This document shows positions 7,341 to 48,641 of a stretch of DNA of 48,641 bases, piece by piece; position 1 is the first letter of the stretch, and every line of letters begins with the position of its first letter. Source of the DNA: a virus. Made by a program: the position numbers and the translations under genes. The stretch is from positions 1 to 48,641 of the IMG/VR virus record IMGVR_UViG_3300047471_000555; one strand, given 5' to 3'. A model generated the notes under the pieces. That model searched no databases. It was not told the DNA's origin and worked only from the letters and a program-made list of their open reading frames with translations.

Positions 7341-8899
7341 GCAACCATCCGCTCGGGTTCGTATGGGTTCCATTCAGTCTCAACAAGGTCCTTGTGGGGA
7401 TAGTCGCCTCCGGCAATGGCCGATTTGGCGATTGGGCCGCCGAAGGTCAAGGCAAGGGCGTCAAGGTCATCGAGTAGAAGGACTGTGCCGGGATTGTCAT
7501 CGACAAGGTCTTCTTTCGGCGTGAGAAGGATTTCGTCCTTCTTATTGTGAGTATACCGAATGGCGAGCATGGTGCGACGAAGGTCGGAGTCGAGCGGTAT
7601 AGCACCGGTTTTGAGCCAAGCGCGAAGGGCCCCAAACATAGCAGCTCGTTTATTTGCATACCGCTCGCCTTGGGTGTCGAAGACGATGCCTGTGATGTCG
7701 TCCTTGGCACCGAACTGAACCTCCGTTACATAGAGCCGTCGCTGTCGACACTGATCGACCACGCCGCCACCAACGCCGCCACCATCGACGAATATTCCGT
7801 CGGGCCGGTATTGTTCATGGACTTCAAAGATTTGATTGGTGAGTTTGGTGGTGTCGATGCCGGAGAAGACCCGACGCTCAAGAGAGCGGGCATCTCGGCC
7901 CTTGCGGGGGAAGATAACTGAGTTGTTGCGGCCGAATCGAGCGACGTCCACGCCAATCGCCAATGGGGTTGATCGGTCCACATAAGGAATCTCCCGATTC
8001 ATCGCAAGGGTTATTTCCTCGTCGGAGAAGAATTCTCGTTCGCCGAACTTGGGGAACTGACCCAAGACTCTAATCTTGACGAAATCGGACTCGAGGCCGT
8101 AAGCCTCGATCCAAGAGTCAAAGCGATGCTTATTAGTGATATTAACTGTTCGTGAGTCGATATTACGGCTGACCCAGTATTTAGAATGGCCACCTCCAGG
8201 AAAGCATTCTCGGAATCGTCCAGACGAACGAGTCGGGTTGCCAAAGACCAGCCAGATGATTTGTGTGTCACGATCTGTAAGGGCCCCTTCAGCGGTCTCC
8301 CAGATTATGTCCACGATCTCTGAGGCTTCGTCAAAGATTAGGATGATTCGTTTGCCTTGGTTATGCAGTCCTGCAAAGGCTGTTGGGTTCTTCTCTGACC
8401 AGGGAATGGCGTCGATTCGCCAAGTCCGTTCACGCTCAGGGTCCTTCGAGATCAGGGCCGTCGCCGTGAGGACGAAGTGGATCTTGGTGAACCAGCAGAG
8501 GTTGAACCACTTGCCGAGTTCGGCCCAGGTTTTGGTCTTGAGCTGGGTTTCGGTGTTGGCGGTGATGACACCCCGCGTATCCGGAAATGTGCAAAATGCC
8601 CAAAGAATAATCCAGGCAACCGTGGCTGATTTGCCGATACCATGGCCGGAAGCTGTAGCAATCTGAATAGCCTGCTCTGTGTTGATAAGGCCATCTTTAA
8701 TCTGAGCAAACAGATCTCGCGTCCATTGGTCAGGGCCATCGAATTTCTCTAAGACTGTTCCAGGTTCGCCCCATGGATAAGCCCCAAGGGTGAAGGCGAG
8801 TGGGTCATCTGAGACCTCGCTTAGCCACTCGAACAGTTGCGCAGTTTGATCTGCCTGGGAGGCCGACGAAAGCCCATTGAACGCCGGCCTCCCAAGCAT
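7337..8899 (-). CDS. terL: Terminase large subunit (packaging ATPase/nuclease)
   Basis: This is a 520-aa protein. The ATPase half has Walker A ATASGHGIGKS near residues 81-91 and Walker B IILIFDEAS near 185-193. The RNase H-fold nuclease half has its acidic residues in IGVDVARFGRN (about D318), GIFVDGGGVGGG (about D372) and LLDDLDAL (about 478-480). It pumps DNA through the portal and cuts it. The start at 8899 shares a base with the small subunit stop. Length and motif order are normal for this family. The packaging mode (cos or pac) cannot be read from the protein alone. Confidence 0.95.
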   Translation of the reverse strand: MLGRPAFNGLSSASQADQTAQLFEWLSEVSDDPLAFTLGAYPWGEPGTVLEKFDGPDQWTRDLFAQIKDGLINTEQAIQIATASGHGIGKSATVAWIILWAFCTFPDTRGVITANTETQLKTKTWAELGKWFNLCWFTKIHFVLTATALISKDPERERTWRIDAIPWSEKNPTAFAGLHNQGKRIILIFDEASEIVDIIWETAEGALTDRDTQIIWLVFGNPTRSSGRFRECFPGGGHSKYWVSRNIDSRTVNITNKHRFDSWIEAYGLESDFVKIRVLGQFPKFGEREFFSDEEITLAMNREIPYVDRSTPLAIGVDVARFGRNNSVIFPRKGRDARSLERRVFSGIDTTKLTNQIFEVHEQYRPDGIFVDGGGVGGGVVDQCRQRRLYVTEVQFGAKDDITGIVFDTQGERYANKRAAMFGALRAWLKTGAIPLDSDLRRTMLAIRYTHNKKDEILLTPKEDLVDDNPGTVLLLDDLDALALTFGGPIAKSAIAGGDYPHKDLVETEWNPYEPERMVA

Positions 8900-9477
8900 T
8901 AGGCTGACTCCTTCAGTAGGGAGGGAGCGGAGTCAGCCGTCGCGTCAATTTGGGACGAGGCCCTCCGTCGAGCGGCCTCTAACCTTCCGGCGAAATCAAC
9001 ATTCACGTTGACCGTGGTGGATTTCTTCCCATAACCGACGCGATCCGCAGAGTCGCTAGCAATCGCGGTGAGGAGACGAAGGGGAACAGGCTCATCCTCT
9101 TCGTCTGCTTTATCGAGTTGATCGCCTATCTGGCGCTGGGCCTTAATGCCATTGGCGTAGATCAGGCGGTGATATTCGTCTTGGTTCTTGGCCCATTCAT
9201 CAGTGATGATTTGGCGATAGTGTTCGATCAGTTCCTTGACGCCGGGGTCGGCGGCTAGGAGCGAGATTCGGTTAATAGAAAACCCACAGACCTGAGCGGT
9301 TTCGGTCTGGCTCATGCCCGAGGCGAGGTATCGGGCAATGGCGTGATGCGAGTCCCGAATCTTCCGCAGCATCGGCACCACGCGCTTCTCCTGCAAGAAC
9401 GCCAAGTCCTCGGGGCGGAGGACTGCGATCTCGAGGATCCGAGGGGAATTAGGCTGCCGCTGCGGCTTCATAGCCAA
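8899..9477 (-). CDS. terS: Terminase small subunit (DNA recognition)
   Basis: This is a 192-aa protein with a helix-turn-helix near residues 47-75 (IARYLASGMSQTETAQVCGF), a helical middle and a Val/Asn stretch (KSTTVNVNVDFAGRLEAARR) typical of small terminases. It precedes terL directly. The start at 9477 overlaps the upstream gene by 29 nt; the Met three codons in is an alternative. It would bind the packaging site and regulate TerL. Confidence 0.85.
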   Translation of the reverse strand: MAMKPQRQPNSPRILEIAVLRPEDLAFLQEKRVVPMLRKIRDSHHAIARYLASGMSQTETAQVCGFSINRISLLAADPGVKELIEHYRQIITDEWAKNQDEYHRLIYANGIKAQRQIGDQLDKADEEDEPVPLRLLTAIASDSADRVGYGKKSTTVNVNVDFAGRLEAARRRASSQIDATADSAPSLLKESA

Positions 9478-16884: not shown

Positions 16885-17078
16885 CGGCTAAACTCGCCCC
16901 ATCCATCCCCAATAACTACACTCGCTTCCTTTCCATCGGCCCAGGTGGGCGGAAATGCACTTGTTGCTTCCCTGGTCCTAGAACCAAAGACAGGCGAGCA
17001 CAATACCGCTCTGCCAAGCGACGCTATCGTTGCGAGATTCGCAAACTCATCTGTGAGGAGATGATCAATGACGGCTAA
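16881..17078 (+). CDS. 65-aa basic Cys-containing protein starting MTAKLA
   Basis: The product begins MTAKLAPSIP, has KCTCCF near its centre and a basic helix (RTKDRRAQYRSAKRRYRCEI). The closely spaced Cys residues and basic helix suggest a small nucleic-acid-binding protein, unproven. Its last 22 bases and the beginning of the next gene repeat its own start region. Confidence 0.6.
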   Translation: MTAKLAPSIPNNYTRFLSIGPGGRKCTCCFPGPRTKDRRAQYRSAKRRYRCEIRKLICEEMINDG

Positions 17079-17355
17079 GCTCGCCTCCCCCGATGCTGAG
17101 GGCTACTATGCCAAGCCAAATAATCCATTGGTTATGTGGACAGATGGAAGGTGGATTTATATAGAGCTTCCCTCCAAGACCACGCCATGTATCATGAAAT
17201 ACGCTCTCCACGAGGGCGGGCTGTGGAAAGCCCTGAACACCCTCCGCAAGCATAGCTATGAATTCACGGGCGAGACAGTCAAGGTCATAGCAATGACCAA
17301 TCCTAAAATCGCCCATGCCATGAAAATCTTGAAGGATAGGGGGACACTTCGATGA
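17068..17355 (+). CDS. 95-aa early protein starting MTAKLA
   Basis: The start lies in the second copy of GATCAATGACGGCTAA, overlapping the previous gene by 11 nt. The product begins MTAKLASPDA, then has NPLVMWTDGRWIYIELPSKT and KALNTLRKHSYEFTGE. No family was recognised. The identical first six residues as the preceding gene come from duplicated start DNA rather than homology along the whole length. Confidence 0.68.
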   Translation: MTAKLASPDAEGYYAKPNNPLVMWTDGRWIYIELPSKTTPCIMKYALHEGGLWKALNTLRKHSYEFTGETVKVIAMTNPKIAHAMKILKDRGTLR

Positions 17356-17435
17356 GCTGCGATATCATAACCATCATATCCGCCATCATCGGTGCCATTG
17401 TAGGAAGCGCCCTTGCTTTCAGATACTATCCATGA
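17352..17435 (+). CDS. 27-aa membrane microprotein
   Basis: The ATG overlaps the upstream stop, and the stop overlaps the downstream start, both as ATGA. Almost the whole product is one hydrophobic segment with small-residue spacing (IISAIIGAIVGSALAF) and a short Arg/Tyr tail. It should insert in the inner membrane; a role in membrane stress, exclusion or lysis control is speculative. Confidence 0.5.
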   Translation: MSCDIITIISAIIGAIVGSALAFRYYP

Positions 17436-17707
17436 CCCTAGAGTCCCTCCTATCCGAACTCACTCTTGGCTGGCGACTCCGATACCTCACACAAGAACGA
17501 TCCTACTGGGCAGCTATGCTATGGCACTACAATGGCCTCGTCACGCCTAGGGCCACTGGCCTGTCCGCCTGTGAGGCGCTCGCCAATGCCCTCAGCTCCA
17601 TCGCCGATGCCGCGCCCGACGTTTACAACTATTCCGTCCAACCTGCGACGGTCAACCTGCGACAAATGCTGGGGATTGTCCCGAAGGATTTTGTGAAACG
17701 GTTCTAA
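17432..17707 (+). CDS. 91-aa small phage protein ending FVKRF
   Basis: This is a helical protein (MTLESLLSELTLGWRLRYLT; WAAMLWHYNGLVTPRATGLS; EALANALSSIADAAP) with the compact layout of small phage proteins of unknown function. The last five residues, FVKRF, are shared with the protein at 22321-22521. It is coupled to the membrane microprotein upstream and directly precedes the PEP-CTERM gene. Confidence 0.68.
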   Translation: MTLESLLSELTLGWRLRYLTQERSYWAAMLWHYNGLVTPRATGLSACEALANALSSIADAAPDVYNYSVQPATVNLRQMLGIVPKDFVKRF

Positions 17708-17708
17708 C

Positions 17709-18113
17709 ATGATCATCACCCTCAACCTAGTCAATGACTTTGATCAATGGATCGACCTTGGTCAGCCAGTAACTATATTCCCTGGCGACACCCTCTCCGC
17801 CACTGTCACCTGGACGATGCCAGTTGAGCTTAAGCTCATTCCTAATGTTTATATATTCACCCCCTACGATCCACCAGGGTTTAACAATGGCTTCGACCAT
17901 TTCCATCAATTCGCTCAGTGGCGATTAATCGGCCATCAATCCATTGGTTTGGATTTCTCCCTTGCCTACAATGGCCCCAATTTCATTGACGACGGCCGAG
18001 TCTTCCAAACCATTCCCTGGGGAGTCGGAGCTGTCCCCGAACCTGCGACTTGGGCGCTGATGCTCCTTGGCTTCGCTCTCATCGGCAGGCGAATCAGAAA
18101 GGCAATCATATGA
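17709..18113 (+). CDS. PEP-CTERM-tailed protein without signal peptide
   Basis: This is a 134-aa product. The last 27 residues are a textbook PEP-CTERM sorting signal: VPEP at 109-112, a hydrophobic span (ATWALMLLGFALIG) and a basic end (RRIRK). The preceding 105 residues are beta-rich (DTLSATVTWTMPVELKLIPN; GFDHFHQFAQWRL; SIGLDFSLAYNGP). In bacteria such tails are processed by exosortase on proteins exported by Sec. Here no N-terminal signal peptide exists, and the start lies one base after the previous stop, so none can be added. It probably derives from a host surface protein. Function in the phage is unknown. Confidence 0.85.
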   Translation: MIITLNLVNDFDQWIDLGQPVTIFPGDTLSATVTWTMPVELKLIPNVYIFTPYDPPGFNNGFDHFHQFAQWRLIGHQSIGLDFSLAYNGPNFIDDGRVFQTIPWGVGAVPEPATWALMLLGFALIGRRIRKAII

Positions 18114-18397
18114 AAAAGCTATTAAGAAAATGGCTGGGGATTGATGATACCATCACTTATCTCGACAGCCTATCAATCACAGTCTCACAACAACACGCCA
18201 ACACGCGCGATGCGATTGCAATTCATAATCGCGCCCTCGGTCGATTAATCGCTCGCATTGATCCGATGTTCTTCGCTGAGGACAACCTGCTAAGTTCAGA
18301 TGAATATAAGAAACGTCGTGCCGAGTCAGATGAGCTTGGGGATAAAGCCATAGCTCGGATCATTGCCGAACACAAAGCCCAGAAACCATACGGATGA
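18110..18397 (+). CDS. 95-aa helical early protein
   Basis: ATG 18110 overlaps the PEP-CTERM gene stop. The product opens MKKLLRKWLGIDDTITYLDS and then forms an amphipathic, probably coiled, helix (QHANTRDAIAIHNRALGRLI). The short basic beginning is not hydrophobic enough for a signal peptide. Function is unknown. Confidence 0.65.
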   Translation: MKKLLRKWLGIDDTITYLDSLSITVSQQHANTRDAIAIHNRALGRLIARIDPMFFAEDNLLSSDEYKKRRAESDELGDKAIARIIAEHKAQKPYG

Positions 18398-18891
18398 ATC
18401 ATATGAACGACATCGCCACAATCGAACGGGCCTTGAAGGACGCTGACCTGGGAATTGAATGGCTTGCAAAGGGAGGGCCGTTTATGCAAAAGGAAGTGGC
18501 CAGCTTGCATGATCAAATAACCGCGGCCCTCATGCTCCTTCGTCAAATCCCCGGCCAACATTCCCCCACCACCGCAGCGCGCCAGGGTTTCCAGGCCCTT
18601 CAGAACGCCCTCCACCAATACGAGGCGATTGGACCTGCGAAGATGGAGCGGAAGGATCTAAACCTTATCCGCGACGCCGTGCCTTCTCATGGTCCTGGCC
18701 ACGACGCCGCTAATCTTCAGGTCAAACGTGAAGGTGAAGCCTGGGACGCAGGCGCAGAGGCGATGCGGGAGGAAGTGGCGCTGCGCATCATTCGGGACAG
18801 AGATCTATTGCCTGATGATCGCATCTTCGATGATCCGGTGCGGCAGGCTATCGAAGTCCGCGCCCTCCCTCTCCCCCGGAGGCCGGCATGA
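18394..18891 (+). CDS. 165-aa early protein
   Basis: The first half is helical (ATIERALKDADLGIEWLAKG; DQITAALMLLRQIPGQHSPT). The second half (EAWDAGAEAMREEVALRIIR, then AIEVRALPLP) follows a pattern common in phage proteins of unknown function, where a helix-rich segment ends in RALPLP. GC content rises from here to about 19330. Coupled at both ends by ATGA. Confidence 0.65.
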   Translation: MNHMNDIATIERALKDADLGIEWLAKGGPFMQKEVASLHDQITAALMLLRQIPGQHSPTTAARQGFQALQNALHQYEAIGPAKMERKDLNLIRDAVPSHGPGHDAANLQVKREGEAWDAGAEAMREEVALRIIRDRDLLPDDRIFDDPVRQAIEVRALPLPRRPA

Positions 18892-19109
18892 GCGAGCGCA
18901 GGAGACACACCGGCCGGCCGGACTACTGCCCGGACGATCTGCGCGAAGACGAGATTTGCCCGGCTTGCGGCGCGTCGGTCGAGAACCTACTCGCTTGTAA
19001 CGCTCGCTTCAATGGGCGGCGCGGGCGCCCACTCTTGGAATTCGTTCTCGTCGACAAGCAGACTGGCGAAGTCATCGCCAAACAAACAGTTCTTAGGAGA
19101 CGCGCATGA
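18888..19109 (+). CDS. 73-aa Cys-containing protein in GC-rich patch
   Basis: The product has YCPDDLREDEICPACGASVE with a CPAC knuckle and further Cys near residue 37, then a basic/beta tail (LLEFVLVDKQTGEVIAKQ). It could be an incomplete zinc ribbon. The local GC content is visibly higher than in neighbouring genes, suggesting a different origin. Confidence 0.6.
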   Translation: MSERRRHTGRPDYCPDDLREDEICPACGASVENLLACNARFNGRRGRPLLEFVLVDKQTGEVIAKQTVLRRRA

Positions 19110-19333
19110 CGGCTCCCACAGAGCGAGAGGCGATTACGCGGATCATCGCCCGCACCGTTGTGCAGGACAAGCCTTTTGTCGACCACATCATCGCCGCCGA
19201 CCGCATCATCGCCGAGCACATCGCACCGCTCCGAGACCGCGCCTCTACGCTCGAAGCCGCCATTAAACGCTGGCTAGAGTCTCCAAATACCGAATCCTTC
19301 AACGCTCTCAAGAGGCTAGTAAATCATGAGTGA
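19106..19333 (+). CDS. 75-aa helical early protein
   Basis: The product opens MTAPTEREAITRIIARTVVQ and has repeated Ile/Ala helices (HIIAADRIIAEHIAPLRDRA). Overlaps the next gene by 8 nt. The REAITRIIA ... AADRIIA pattern is common in small phage proteins; no activity is known. Confidence 0.62.
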   Translation: MTAPTEREAITRIIARTVVQDKPFVDHIIAADRIIAEHIAPLRDRASTLEAAIKRWLESPNTESFNALKRLVNHE

Positions 19334-19562
19334 AATGATCCCCACCTTCGGCGGCCACGCCTCTCGGTCTGAAACCTTCGCCAAGCTCCTCCATCACATT
19401 CGCGAAGCCCAATCCCTTGCCGCGGTGATGGGACACCTGCATAACACCGAGGGCAACGACGCAGATCGCCTCCACGCCAAGGGCTGGCTCGGGATGTCGG
19501 AGATGTTCAACCTAATCGCTCATCAGGTGACAATGCTCGCTCAAGGGAAGTTACTTCAGTAA
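19326..19562 (+). CDS. 78-aa helical early protein, last of first early block
   Basis: The product opens MSEMIPTFGGHASRSETFAK and has a helical, His-containing core (LLHHIREAQSLAAVMGHLHN). It is followed within two bases by a hairpin and then a promoter, so it ends the first rightward block. Function is unknown. Confidence 0.65.
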   Translation: MSEMIPTFGGHASRSETFAKLLHHIREAQSLAAVMGHLHNTEGNDADRLHAKGWLGMSEMFNLIAHQVTMLAQGKLLQ

Positions 19563-19638: not shown

Positions 19639-19881
19639 ATGAAACGAGAATCCGCCGCAGAGACGGCCCTGAGGCGACAGGTCAAGATCCTCCGTGAGAA
19701 GCAAACCGAACTCACTCAAGCCAGGGATGAAATCCAAACTAAGATTAACGTTCTCGCCGAAATGATTGGTCAGTTTCTTCTAGAGATCGATCATTCCAAA
19801 GCCCTAAGGGAGAAAGCCAATGAAGCCCGAAAGCCCAACAATATCCCACGCGCCTACCAGCGAGCAGCAGGCGATTCTTGA
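19639..19881 (+). CDS. 80-aa coiled-coil protein overlapping the helicase start
   Basis: The product is mostly a charged coiled coil (RRQVKILREKQTELTQARDE, then a DEIQTKINVLAEMIGQ region). It overlaps the helicase gene by 62 nt, unusual here because most overlaps are 4 nt. It is probably a small accessory to the helicase; this is inferred from coupling. Confidence 0.68.
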   Translation: MKRESAAETALRRQVKILREKQTELTQARDEIQTKINVLAEMIGQFLLEIDHSKALREKANEARKPNNIPRAYQRAAGDS

Positions 19882-21232
19882 CTTTGTCGCCTCCCGTCAA
19901 GACAATCTTATGATCCGTGCCCTCGCAGGCACAGGCAAGTCCGCTACGCTACTTATGATCGACAAGGCATCGAAGATTAAGCCCATCCTTTACCTTGTCT
20001 TCAATCGCGAGAATGCCAAAAAAGCTCGAAAGGAATTCTCCGACACCACCACGGTTAAGACCTTCAACTCTGTCGGGCAGGGAGTCTGGGGCGATACCTG
20101 CGCCAAGGGACTGACCGTCAACAAGAATAAATTCCATGAAATCTTCCTTCGCCTCTGTGAAGGTCAGTCCCGTAGTGAGGCCCGCGCTCTATGGGCGACT
20201 TATGATATTGTCCGTGATGGCGTCGCTATGGCCAAGGCCCTCGGGTATATACCTGCGAATCACCCTAAGGGACGAAATAGCCTTTGTGAAGATTGGGACC
20301 TATGGAATGCCCTCGATGAAAACCCCTCGCCTCTGGCCAAGGAACTTATTACTCAAATTCTCGAAGAGTCTATCCGACAGGCCTATTCTGGAATCATTGA
20401 TTTTAACGATCAGTGTTACATGGGTAGCCTATTCGGTGGGGTTTATCCTCGTTTTCCTCTGGTGTTGGTTGATGAATACCAAGACCTAAGCCCCGTCCAA
20501 CATCACCTGCTTTCCAAGCTCTGCAAGCATTCCCGTCAGATAGGAGTCGGCGATGACGCACAAAGTATCTACGCCTTCCGAGGCGCCGTCCAAGGCGGAA
20601 TGGCCAAAGCAATCAAAACTTTCAGTATGGCCGAGATGTCCCTTACAGTTTCGTTTCGGTGCCCCACGGCGATTGTTGATAACGTCCGCTGGAGAGTTCC
20701 AGACTTTAAGGCAGCGCGAGTGGGCGGCACGGTTCGAAAGGGAATGGAGCAAATAGTCGATAATAGCACGGTCATCTGTCGAAACAACGCCCCCCTCCTC
20801 ACGGAGGCGATGCGAATGCTCTACTCAGGGCGGTCAGTGAATGTGGCTGGGGTCGACATCTCCACCCGCCTAATCAAGCACATGACCAAACTCGGCGATG
20901 GGGATATATCCGCAAATGTTGCCATGGATTTGATTGAGGTTTGGGAGGCCAAGAAGGAAGCCTCTGGGGCCAAAAACGCCAAGGACATGGCCGACTGCAT
21001 GCGAGTCTTTGTTAAACGGTCAGAGACCTTGGGTGGTGCAATCGCCAGGGCCCGTGATATCTTCCAGCGATCCGGGACAGTATCCTTCATGACCGGCCAC
21101 AAGGCCAAGGGCTTGGAGTTCGATCGAGTCTACCACCTCGATGAGGGACTTTGCCTTGCGGGCAATGGCCAGGATCAGAACATCCGCTATGTCATCGACA
21201 CTCGGACTACAAACGAATTGATTTACATCTAG
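19820..21232 (+). CDS. UvrD/Rep-like superfamily 1 DNA helicase
   Basis: This is a 470-aa protein. Motifs in order: Q-motif TSEQQAIL near 13, Walker A ALAGTGKSA near 34, a TFNS motif near 81, Walker B VLVDEYQD near 215, motif III GDDAQSIYAFRGA near 244, motif IV VSFRCP near 277, motif V TGHKAKGLEFDRVY near 416, and a terminal motif VI-like RYVIDTRTTNEL. It unwinds DNA using ATP, for replication or recombination. The protein is shorter than UvrD, like phage Dda- and RecD2-type helicases. The start follows GGGAGAAAGCCA. Confidence 0.92.
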   Translation: MKPESPTISHAPTSEQQAILDFVASRQDNLMIRALAGTGKSATLLMIDKASKIKPILYLVFNRENAKKARKEFSDTTTVKTFNSVGQGVWGDTCAKGLTVNKNKFHEIFLRLCEGQSRSEARALWATYDIVRDGVAMAKALGYIPANHPKGRNSLCEDWDLWNALDENPSPLAKELITQILEESIRQAYSGIIDFNDQCYMGSLFGGVYPRFPLVLVDEYQDLSPVQHHLLSKLCKHSRQIGVGDDAQSIYAFRGAVQGGMAKAIKTFSMAEMSLTVSFRCPTAIVDNVRWRVPDFKAARVGGTVRKGMEQIVDNSTVICRNNAPLLTEAMRMLYSGRSVNVAGVDISTRLIKHMTKLGDGDISANVAMDLIEVWEAKKEASGAKNAKDMADCMRVFVKRSETLGGAIARARDIFQRSGTVSFMTGHKAKGLEFDRVYHLDEGLCLAGNGQDQNIRYVIDTRTTNELIYI

Positions 21233-22324: not shown

Positions 22325-22521
22325 ACGATATCAACCTGCTTATGTCCAAACCACTCGACGAGCTAATCCCTTCAGACATCGACGCCATCATCGCATGGCA
22401 TAGAGCAATTCGGGAAAAGCCACAAAAAGAGCGCCCAACCGAAGAGAAGCTGGACCTATCGAAGATACTTAACACTGTTAAGAAATCCACCGCACCTGTG
22501 GGATTTGTGAAGAGGTTCTAA
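22321..22521 (+). CDS. 66-aa early protein ending FVKRF
   Basis: The product is acidic and helical at the start (NLLMSKPLDELIPSDIDAII) and has a Lys/Glu-rich linker and the C-terminus APVGFVKRF. FVKRF is also the end of the unrelated protein at 17432-17707. It directly precedes the Cas4-like nuclease. Function is unknown. Confidence 0.65.
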   Translation: MNDINLLMSKPLDELIPSDIDAIIAWHRAIREKPQKERPTEEKLDLSKILNTVKKSTAPVGFVKRF

Positions 22522-46874: not shown

Positions 46875-48437
46875 CTAGTAGGGGGCTGCGATAGTTGAGC
46901 CAGTGCTCATATCGATGTTGTTCGAGAAGGTCGGACTCGTGACGGAGCCCGTTCCAGATACTGTCACGGCGACGCCAGTGGCTGAACCGGAAGCGTTATG
47001 ATCTAGTGTTATCGAGGATGAGCTATTCACAGTTAGAACCCTCGACCCAGCTGGACAGACTGAGCAGGCCACTTGCGAGGACTGGAACACACTGTTCGTT
47101 GAGGTAAGGCCGGTGATAGTTGGGCTTCCCGAGGTGGCGACACCGCCAGTCATCGGATTCGGCGACGGGAGAGGGGATGATGCCTGTGGATAGAATGCAC
47201 TAAACATAGTCGCGCCTATGTAATTATTCGACGCAACTGGCGATACCATATTGCCGGTGCAGCCATTACAATTCGTCAAATTGATTTGAAATGGCCGGCT
47301 GAAGGCGTTGGCATTGGCTTGGCCTCCAGCTTGGCCATGATTGGTCCCGACGCCAATGGCTGTGTTATTTGAAACATCCAGTCCGGCGATATTCCCCGCG
47401 CCTTGGCTATTTGAATTAACCACGGAATTATTCAAGCCCGGGACGTTATAACCCCCAGCATCAGTGCCAGTGACCGCAGGGACATACATAGTATTGAATT
47501 TAAACGCCATAGCGGTCGCTCCATGCGACCCCTGGAAGCAGTCTGAGTGAAGCAATTCAGGGAAGTAATTTTGCGAATAGCATACATTGAATTGGATATT
47601 GAAAGATTGCGATCCAGTGGCGCCATCGTAGAATATTGCATCATTTGGCAGATTATGGAAGTAGCTATATTGAACAGTTAGCAACCCAGCGCCGTGATAA
47701 TACAGAGCGTTAGGTGAACCAGACGTTTTGCCAAGCAGCCCTCCACCATCAAAATCAACTGCGGTTACGGTCAAATTTCCAGCGGTCGCCGAATTTACGC
47801 CGATCTGTTGACCCGATGTGTCGGTGATGACGAATGCGGAGTTGGTCAAGAAATTGTCGTGAGGCGTGCCTGTAGGCATACCAAAAGAGGCGTTGTTGAA
47901 TTGGGAATTCTTGACTGTGATGTTACTGGAAGTTCCGATGATCGAGATCCCGCCACCCGAGGGAAAGGTCCAGCCATCAAAAACGCACGGACCAGTGACA
48001 TTGTTGACCGTCACAATGAAAGCTGGCCCAGCTCCGACAGTGCCACACGGCAATGTATCCGTCCCCGGCACCTTCGTTGGCGTGAATGGAGCCGGGCCAA
48101 CGCCGTAATCAACACCGGCCACATTCCACGGCGGCCGATGGGCTGAGTAGCCAGTATCAGCGAATAGGGTCGGGAATTGCCCAGCGGCGACGGAAGCACC
48201 TGTGCAACCATCAAAGTAACCAGGGCGTAAAGCACAGCCAGTTGGAGGCGGCGTGACCGTCCCTTTCAGCTTTAGCCCTGCTAGACAAAATTCCTTTCCA
48301 AGCGCAACGTCGCCATCGCTACAAGGGACTTTGTAGATAGTCCAAGCCTCAACCCCTTCCGGAGGGGCGGCGGTCAGGGCCTGTGCCGCGCCGAAGCTCA
48401 AGGCAAAAGCCAGGATGAAGAATGTCGATTTCAACAT
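46875..48437 (-). CDS. Exported right-handed beta-helix protein (tailspike-like)
   Basis: This is a 520-aa protein. ATG 48437 overlaps the previous stop by 7 nt and is followed directly by a signal peptide (MLKSTFFILAFALSFGAAQA). The mature part has repeating short strands (ISIIGTSSNITVKNSQFNNA; TVQYSYFHNLPNDAIFYDGA; IQFNVCYSQNYFPE) of a parallel beta-helix as in pectate-lyase and tailspike folds, then a Ser/Thr-rich beta tail. About 12 Cys, many in close pairs, suggest disulfides. It might be a secreted or surface glycan-acting spike; enzyme residues were not identified. Confidence 0.85.
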   Translation of the reverse strand: MLKSTFFILAFALSFGAAQALTAAPPEGVEAWTIYKVPCSDGDVALGKEFCLAGLKLKGTVTPPPTGCALRPGYFDGCTGASVAAGQFPTLFADTGYSAHRPPWNVAGVDYGVGPAPFTPTKVPGTDTLPCGTVGAGPAFIVTVNNVTGPCVFDGWTFPSGGGISIIGTSSNITVKNSQFNNASFGMPTGTPHDNFLTNSAFVITDTSGQQIGVNSATAGNLTVTAVDFDGGGLLGKTSGSPNALYYHGAGLLTVQYSYFHNLPNDAIFYDGATGSQSFNIQFNVCYSQNYFPELLHSDCFQGSHGATAMAFKFNTMYVPAVTGTDAGGYNVPGLNNSVVNSNSQGAGNIAGLDVSNNTAIGVGTNHGQAGGQANANAFSRPFQINLTNCNGCTGNMVSPVASNNYIGATMFSAFYPQASSPLPSPNPMTGGVATSGSPTITGLTSTNSVFQSSQVACSVCPAGSRVLTVNSSSSITLDHNASGSATGVAVTVSGTGSVTSPTFSNNIDMSTGSTIAAPY

Positions 48438-48641
48438 GACGTTGACGTTCCCCAATAAGCGAATTGATTGTGGCACATACTAGTTTGGTTTCCGGTCGAG
48501 AAGGCCGAGGGCCAAACACCAAGCTCGAAGAAATCAATCGCTGCGTTATTGGCCGCAGCGGTAGAGCCGCTGATGCGATAGGTGGTCGACGCAAACGCAG
48601 TAGCATTGCCGAGGGCGAATGAGGTCTGAGTGGCGTCCACG
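48431..48641 (-). CDS. C-terminal end of the exported protein starting at 885 (second copy of the join)
   Basis: The frame enters from the right edge with the 46 codons that duplicate 1-138, then adds 23 unique residues (FSTGNQTSMCHNQFAYWGTS, then TSC) and stops at 48431. Joined to 1-885 it gives the full 318-aa protein. The stop overlaps the start of the beta-helix gene. Confidence 0.85.
   Translation of the reverse strand, partial: VDATQTSFALGNATAFASTTYRISGSTAAANNAAIDFFELGVWPSAFSTGNQTSMCHNQFAYWGTSTSC
48503..48641. repeat. Terminal direct repeat, right copy
   Basis: This is the second copy of bases 1-139, with A instead of G at 48629. The exact match covers the first 126 bases and the last 12. 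It closes the genome into a circle of about 48,502 bp. Confidence 0.95.

Follow-up and report, generated by a model that had tools for sequence, protein, structure and literature searches.

Ordinary PEP-CTERM proteins are exported by the Sec pathway, held in the membrane by their tail and processed by an exosortase (PMC12188702). The MYXO-CTERM substrates of myxosortase carry a motif, a helix and a basic end, and in M. xanthus all 35 of them have signal peptides (PMC11980579). In the literature searched, exosortase/PEP-CTERM sorting was described only for bacteria and, as archaeosortase, for archaea. No report of phage-encoded PEP-CTERM proteins was found in the titles and abstracts of that literature, most subscription journals lying outside its scope, and one of the papers found, PMC12642866, concerns host genes.

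The DNA analysed here, whose full 48,641-base stretch we call the window, is the virus record of a podovirus-like phage. It encodes a head-to-tail connector matching PF12236, a terminase with about 42% identity to that of epsilon15-like phages and, on the + strand, a replication block composed of a helicase (phrog_1967), a PD-(D/E)XK nuclease, an AAA protein, a uracil-DNA glycosylase/exonuclease and a family-A DNA polymerase. Judged by the DNA polymerase, the closest isolate is Caulobacter phage Kuura (32% identity), which gave no PEP-CTERM match. PF09721 detected no exosortase in the window record, nor in any of 36 further phage records. Three late-strand genes (882-1685, 1636-2187 and 46875-48476, all on the - strand) have N-termini resembling Sec signal peptides (e.g., MKKYALAALAVVAIGAAIAVAQ, MLKSTFFILAFALSFGAAQA), and similar starts were seen in late genes of another contig, L002.

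A sorting tail in a protein without a signal peptide

A sequence-only reading of the window had drawn attention to a 134-residue product with a clean tripartite PEP-CTERM tail (VPEP, hydrophobic span, RRIRK), no signal peptide and no room for one. The open reading frame is present as described, at 17709..18113 on the + strand, and its tail, residues 109-131 (VPEPATWALMLLGFALIGRRIRK; 18033..18101, +), runs from V109-PEP to RRIRK131. Three curated models matched this tail above their cut-offs. The best was NF035944 (PEPxxWA-CTERM), with 43 bits against a cut-off of 35 (E 3e-11), which places the tail in the PEPxxWA-CTERM subclass; PF07589 gave 30.8 bits (cut-off 20.7) and TIGR02595, the model proposed in that reading as a check, gave 24.7 (cut-off 16). 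When all six frames of the record were searched, the tail was the sole TIGR02595 match (E 5.5e-7), and the same search of 14 control genomes gave none, so we do not regard the tail as a chance match. Its identity as a genuine PEP-CTERM sorting signal is confirmed at the level of these models.

Signal peptides in the window and related proteins were called by sequence rules, and by these rules the 134-residue product has none, as its N-terminus (MIITLNLVNDFDQW) does not show a basic n-region leading into a hydrophobic core. The open frame comprises 138 codons, and only NGSN precedes the ATG. Since the frame opens four codons upstream, behind an intact and conserved gene that we call gene A, no signal peptide is hidden 5' of the ATG, and the earlier view that the gene arrangement leaves no room for one was borne out. 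The gene begins 1 nt after the gene A stop codon and shares an ATGA overlap with the next gene; promoter and terminator scans near it returned weak matches only.

An assembly error, a frameshift or host contamination might mimic a missing signal peptide, and it is true that the contig is metagenomic and from an uncultured phage and that a single copy of the 134-residue gene is available. However, the frame upstream holds a whole, conserved gene, phage genes with homologues in related phages lie on both flanks, an unrelated contig (L180, below) has the same architecture, and sorting-tail genes occur in the same zone of related phages. Based on these observations, we consider an artefact of this kind very improbable.

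The tail has a G+C content of 61% against 49% in the body of the gene; because 12% of gene windows are equally rich, this contrast was not taken as a sign of fusion. Weak matches to NF038129, in which the last strand and the tail align with the end of the model, were obtained for both the window protein (27.4 bits) and the L180 protein (24.1 bits), far under the cut-off of 65. That both proteins lacking a signal peptide match the end of this model is consistent with truncation.

The variable slot ahead of the replication helicase

The 134-residue gene lies in a slot bordered on the left by gene A (17432..17707, +; 91 residues), which is preceded by gene C (17068..17355, +; 95 residues). Both are conserved, gene C having tblastn matches and gene A alignable counterparts in L012, L013, L014 and L016. 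After the 134-residue gene come the gene sharing its ATGA overlap (18110..18397, +; 95 residues) and three more of 165, 73 and 75 residues (18394..19333, +), none of which has a family match. The right border is gene B (19326..19562, +; 78 residues), conserved in the comparison with related phages, and the helicase follows at 19820..21232 (+). In L014 gene B directly follows gene A, and L012, L013 and L016 have other small genes between the two, so that by this comparison the 134-residue gene is accessory and variable among close relatives. The corresponding position between a gene A-like gene and gene B of L127 is occupied by an outer-membrane beta-barrel protein with a signal peptide (8762-9463; PF13505, 51 bits). 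A rough rule, many of whose matches are noise, indicated signal-peptide-like starts in several further slot genes.

Two small features of the region were also observed. A 27-residue membrane mini-ORF (MSCDIITIISAIIGAIVGSALAFRYYP; 17352-17435, +) overlaps gene A, and a tiny membrane ORF resembling it is found just ahead of gene B in L180. Near-identical 18-base gene ends encoding FVKRF and a stop codon lie directly 5' of two genes of the window (17690-17707 and 22504-22521, +), and gene A proteins of related phages have similar KRRI or KRRF endings, perhaps because the DNA there doubles as a ribosome site for the gene that follows.

A search for related phages with gene A alone found none. Gathering them by the helicase gave 107 distinct helicases including that of the window, 90 of them with at least 1 kb of upstream sequence, and sorting-tail profiles were run against all open frames of these loci. 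Five of the 107 phages, the window included, carry a sorting-tail gene, and in all five it lies no more than 2.6 kb upstream of the helicase. This zone accounts for 15% of the locus bases, and the chance of all five falling within it under random placement is approximately 9e-5, a figure to be read with the 2.6-kb bound having been set after the genes were seen and with L097 and L103 not being independent. A sixth carrier, L242, came from a later scan for PLPA-type tails, outside the profile survey. Across the 50 whole records of related phages searched with TIGR02595, nothing was found beyond these carriers.

Four of the six carriers have signal peptides, the window and L180 being those that do not. 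The gene of L134 (8470-9102; 210 residues, signal peptide MKKLLLATAMAMTPIAAMA, PF07589 36 bits) sits between that phage's own genes A and B, the same slot as in the window. In L097 (4418-5050) and L103 (8453-9103; identical protein in L196) the product has a signal peptide beginning MRKFLL and a VPLPA-like tail, and the gene is placed between gene B and a gene A-like gene adjoining the helicase. The L180 product (1040-1270) has only 76 residues (MTDYVLGLGTGYYG...VPLPPGVVLFITGLAMLGILRRKRNGRDE) with a VPLPA-like tail; its gene overlaps gene B at the start and the helicase at the end. L242 carries a VPLPA-type gene with a signal peptide just downstream of the helicase, between it and the nuclease. 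The VPLPA-like tails of L097, L103 and L180 narrowly missed the TIGR03370 cut-off of 25.35 (20.9, 19.8 and 22.8 bits, and 23.6-23.8 in the record search), and L097 and L103 were just over that of TIGR02595 in the record search (16.3 against 16).

On the helicase tree four changes are needed to account for the five carriers, which points to repeated gain and/or loss of sorting-tail genes. L097 and L103 have almost the same helicase. Their sorting-tail genes have both ends in common, with approximately 80% DNA identity over the signal-peptide end (104 bases) and the tail (143 bases), but differ entirely in between. From their sequences, it looks as though a displayed domain had been exchanged between constant ends. 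L101 (9533-9691) and L096, equally close relatives, have no sorting-tail gene.

Together, these comparisons revised the sequence-only reading, which was partly supported overall. It was right in seeing a true PEP-CTERM tail in a phage gene. The check that it proposed, looking in related phages for this gene at this position, gave no homologue of the N-terminal part; what recurs is the tail, and where it lies. The lone tail that it described stands as regards the missing signal peptide but not as regards isolation, since related phages carry sorting-tail genes near the helicase, mostly with signal peptides. As judged from these sequences, the window gene belongs to a recurrent pattern that had been overlooked.

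The rapid gain, loss and domain exchange in the zone upstream of the helicase would also suit a remnant, that is, a full-length exosortase-substrate gene acquired as in the related phages that is now drifting after the loss of its signal peptide and of most of its function. The tail is the only recognisable portion of the window protein, and the L180 protein is even shorter. Against this, the 134-codon frame is intact and packed between overlapping genes, the tail, at 43 bits, ranks with the better matches of its model where drift would erode it, and the form without a signal peptide occurs in two separate cases. We therefore regard a drifting remnant as unlikely.

The frequency of such forms was compared with that in other viral sequences. 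An exact IMG/VR scan for VPEPATWA-x-M gave 43 matches in 41 stretches, and every match whose start lies inside its contig begins with a hydrophobic or signal-peptide-like segment at the N-terminus, as judged by rule and in one or two cases loosely. The PLPA-type scan gave 20 stretches; among those uncut and outside the window lineage, one is without a signal peptide (L225, which has no early start codon and is probably broken). By hand count, 1 of 52 forms outside the lineage lacks a signal peptide, and within the lineage 2 of 6 do (one-sided Fisher 0.026), numbers that are small, with some near-duplicates in the outside sets and groups drawn from different searches. This is only an indication that such forms may be commoner inside the lineage.

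The scans also uncovered a second, unrelated phage group with sorting-tail genes, a family of VPLPA-CTERM-type proteins with signal peptides exemplified by L226 (5262-5813, -) and L231 (62-613, -). Their genes adjoin those for the terminase large subunit (phrog_9) in L226 and small subunit (phrog_83) in L231; similar proteins occur in L230, L236, L237 and L239, and cut ones in L229, L234 and L240. A VPLPA-tailed protein with a signal peptide in L227 (5218-5862, +), a contig that also encodes a primase, an HNH endonuclease and the large subunit of terminase, has a body like that of L134 by eye. L054, L067 and L068, from a 417-kb virus record, contain two PEP-CTERM-model matches in low-complexity, Gly/Ser-rich proteins.

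Composition and predicted orientation of the N-terminal part

Residues 1-107 of the window protein (17709..18029, +) form an acidic part poor in lysine and arginine, which is probably beta-rich, the structure model being of low confidence. No relatives were found for its first approximately 80 residues or for the part as a whole, full-protein searches of phages, plasmids, viral contigs and genome contigs gave tail matches or noise only, and nothing was found for this part in PHROGs or Pfam. Matches to Klebsiella tail fibres (E 6-8), to an Anaerotignum protein and to PDB entry 7bgg (E 0.15) were discarded as chance, and a marginal likeness of the N-terminal part to L002, whose score was reached by 3 of 500 shuffles, was not relied on. 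The structure prediction was poor (pLDDT 43), with residues 112-133 modelled as a helix.

The 107 residues contain 3 K/R and 10 D/E. Windows of this length with so few K/R make up 0.2% among the other early genes and 17% over all genes, the latter because phage structural proteins are also K/R-poor. The mature parts of the L134, L097 and L103 proteins have 4, 2 and 2 K/R in about 160 residues, and the 47 residues ahead of the L180 tail have none. With an acidic, K/R-poor part before the helix and RRIRK after it, the positive-inside rule favours an N-out/C-in orientation, which would turn the PEP motif towards the periplasm. In E. coli ProW, an N-tail of 100 residues is reported to be translocated independently of Sec (Whitley et al. 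1994, cited in PMC6110835). Given this precedent and the positive-inside rule, it is possible that a protein without a signal peptide could present its PEP motif to the periplasm.

The tail might instead be a plain C-terminal hydrophobic anchor, with a cytoplasmic N-terminal part (N-in) and no involvement of exosortase. Such an anchor would account for the absent signal peptide; taken by itself the tail could plausibly form a single helix, as in the low-confidence model, and the operon encodes other small membrane proteins, such as the 27-residue mini-ORF. However, an anchor would not need a PEPATWA motif and basic end kept far over the sorting-signal cut-off, related phages have retained complete sorting signals, along with signal peptides, in this zone, and the basic C-terminal end speaks against N-in. 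A plain anchor thus appears doubtful.

Proposed role and comparison with known systems

The reading that we put forward, tentatively and as somewhat short of probable, is that the 134-residue gene is an early envelope-cargo gene derived from an exosortase substrate, whose product lacks a signal peptide, inserts by its tail and maybe engages the host exosortase. The gene would have come from a host-type PEP-CTERM gene, its signal peptide probably lost with the 5' part, and would occupy a slot that, in this lineage, appears repeatedly to house envelope-directed cargo. Expressed early, the product would enter the inner membrane of the host by means of its own C-terminal helix, N-out/C-in, so that the PEP motif would lie at the periplasmic side, where the substrates of exosortase are held. 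The tail might then be processed by, or occupy, the exosortase and so alter the host envelope during infection, resulting in superinfection exclusion or interference with surface-protein sorting. Decoy or titration of exosortase, a changed host surface and a plain anchor, all raised in the sequence-only reading, are each possible.

This envelope-cargo reading draws support from the three curated models, the sorting-tail genes of L134, L097, L103 and L180 in the same zone and of L242 beside the helicase, and the outer-membrane barrel in the L127 slot. It is further supported by the tight packing on both sides of the window and L180 genes, as for a retained gene, by a K/R content that is rare among early genes and nil before the L180 tail, by the ProW precedent, and by the shared matches to the NF038129 end. 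Against it stand the signal peptides of described exosortase substrates, which the window protein lacks, an N-terminal part without relatives, and the poor structure model; in addition, the scarcity of K/R may simply go back to an exported ancestor, and it is likewise seen in phage structural proteins. The PEPxxWA tail, the L127 barrel gene and the link to Kuura give a hint of an alphaproteobacterial host.

More broadly, we speculate that a podovirus-like lineage uses the host exosortase pathway as a platform, repeatedly gaining PEP-CTERM or VPLPA-CTERM genes beside the helicase, swapping their displayed domains while the signal peptide and the tail stay constant, and in some members producing tail-only forms that lack the signal peptide, enter the inner membrane N-out and act as exosortase decoys or inhibitors; as a whole this is improbable. 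Phages that repeatedly carry exosortase substrates would tie infection to how surface and exopolysaccharide-associated proteins are sorted. The forms of 76 and 134 residues could serve as small natural constructs for questions of exosortase substrate recognition and titration, and the slot as a handle on envelope-directed cargo of uncultured phages.

Compared with the PEPxxWA-CTERM proteins (NF035944, within PEP-CTERM TIGR02595/PF07589), which are exosortase substrates, the window protein has the same tripartite tail over the cut-offs, and its acidic, K/R-poor body is like the mature parts of the sorting-tail proteins of related phages. It differs in being without a signal peptide, in being phage-encoded, in its replication-side operon and in the absence of an exosortase from the record; as the defining signal peptide is absent, we do not file it as a member of these substrates. 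VPLPA-CTERM (TIGR03370) is the tail type found near the related helicase in L097, L103 and L180, whereas the window tail is of the PEP type. MYXO-CTERM and LPXTG/sortase systems follow the same tripartite logic with other motifs and enzymes, and their substrates have signal peptides. ProW, a multi-span permease subunit, is unlike the window protein, whose insertion is predicted, but it too has an acidic N-terminal part of about 100 residues before its first helix and no signal peptide. Finally, unlike the envelope and superinfection-exclusion morons of phages, the window gene lies inside an operon with no obvious promoter of its own, and its exclusion role is putative; like them, it is an accessory gene in a variable slot, and its relatives carry envelope-directed cargo.
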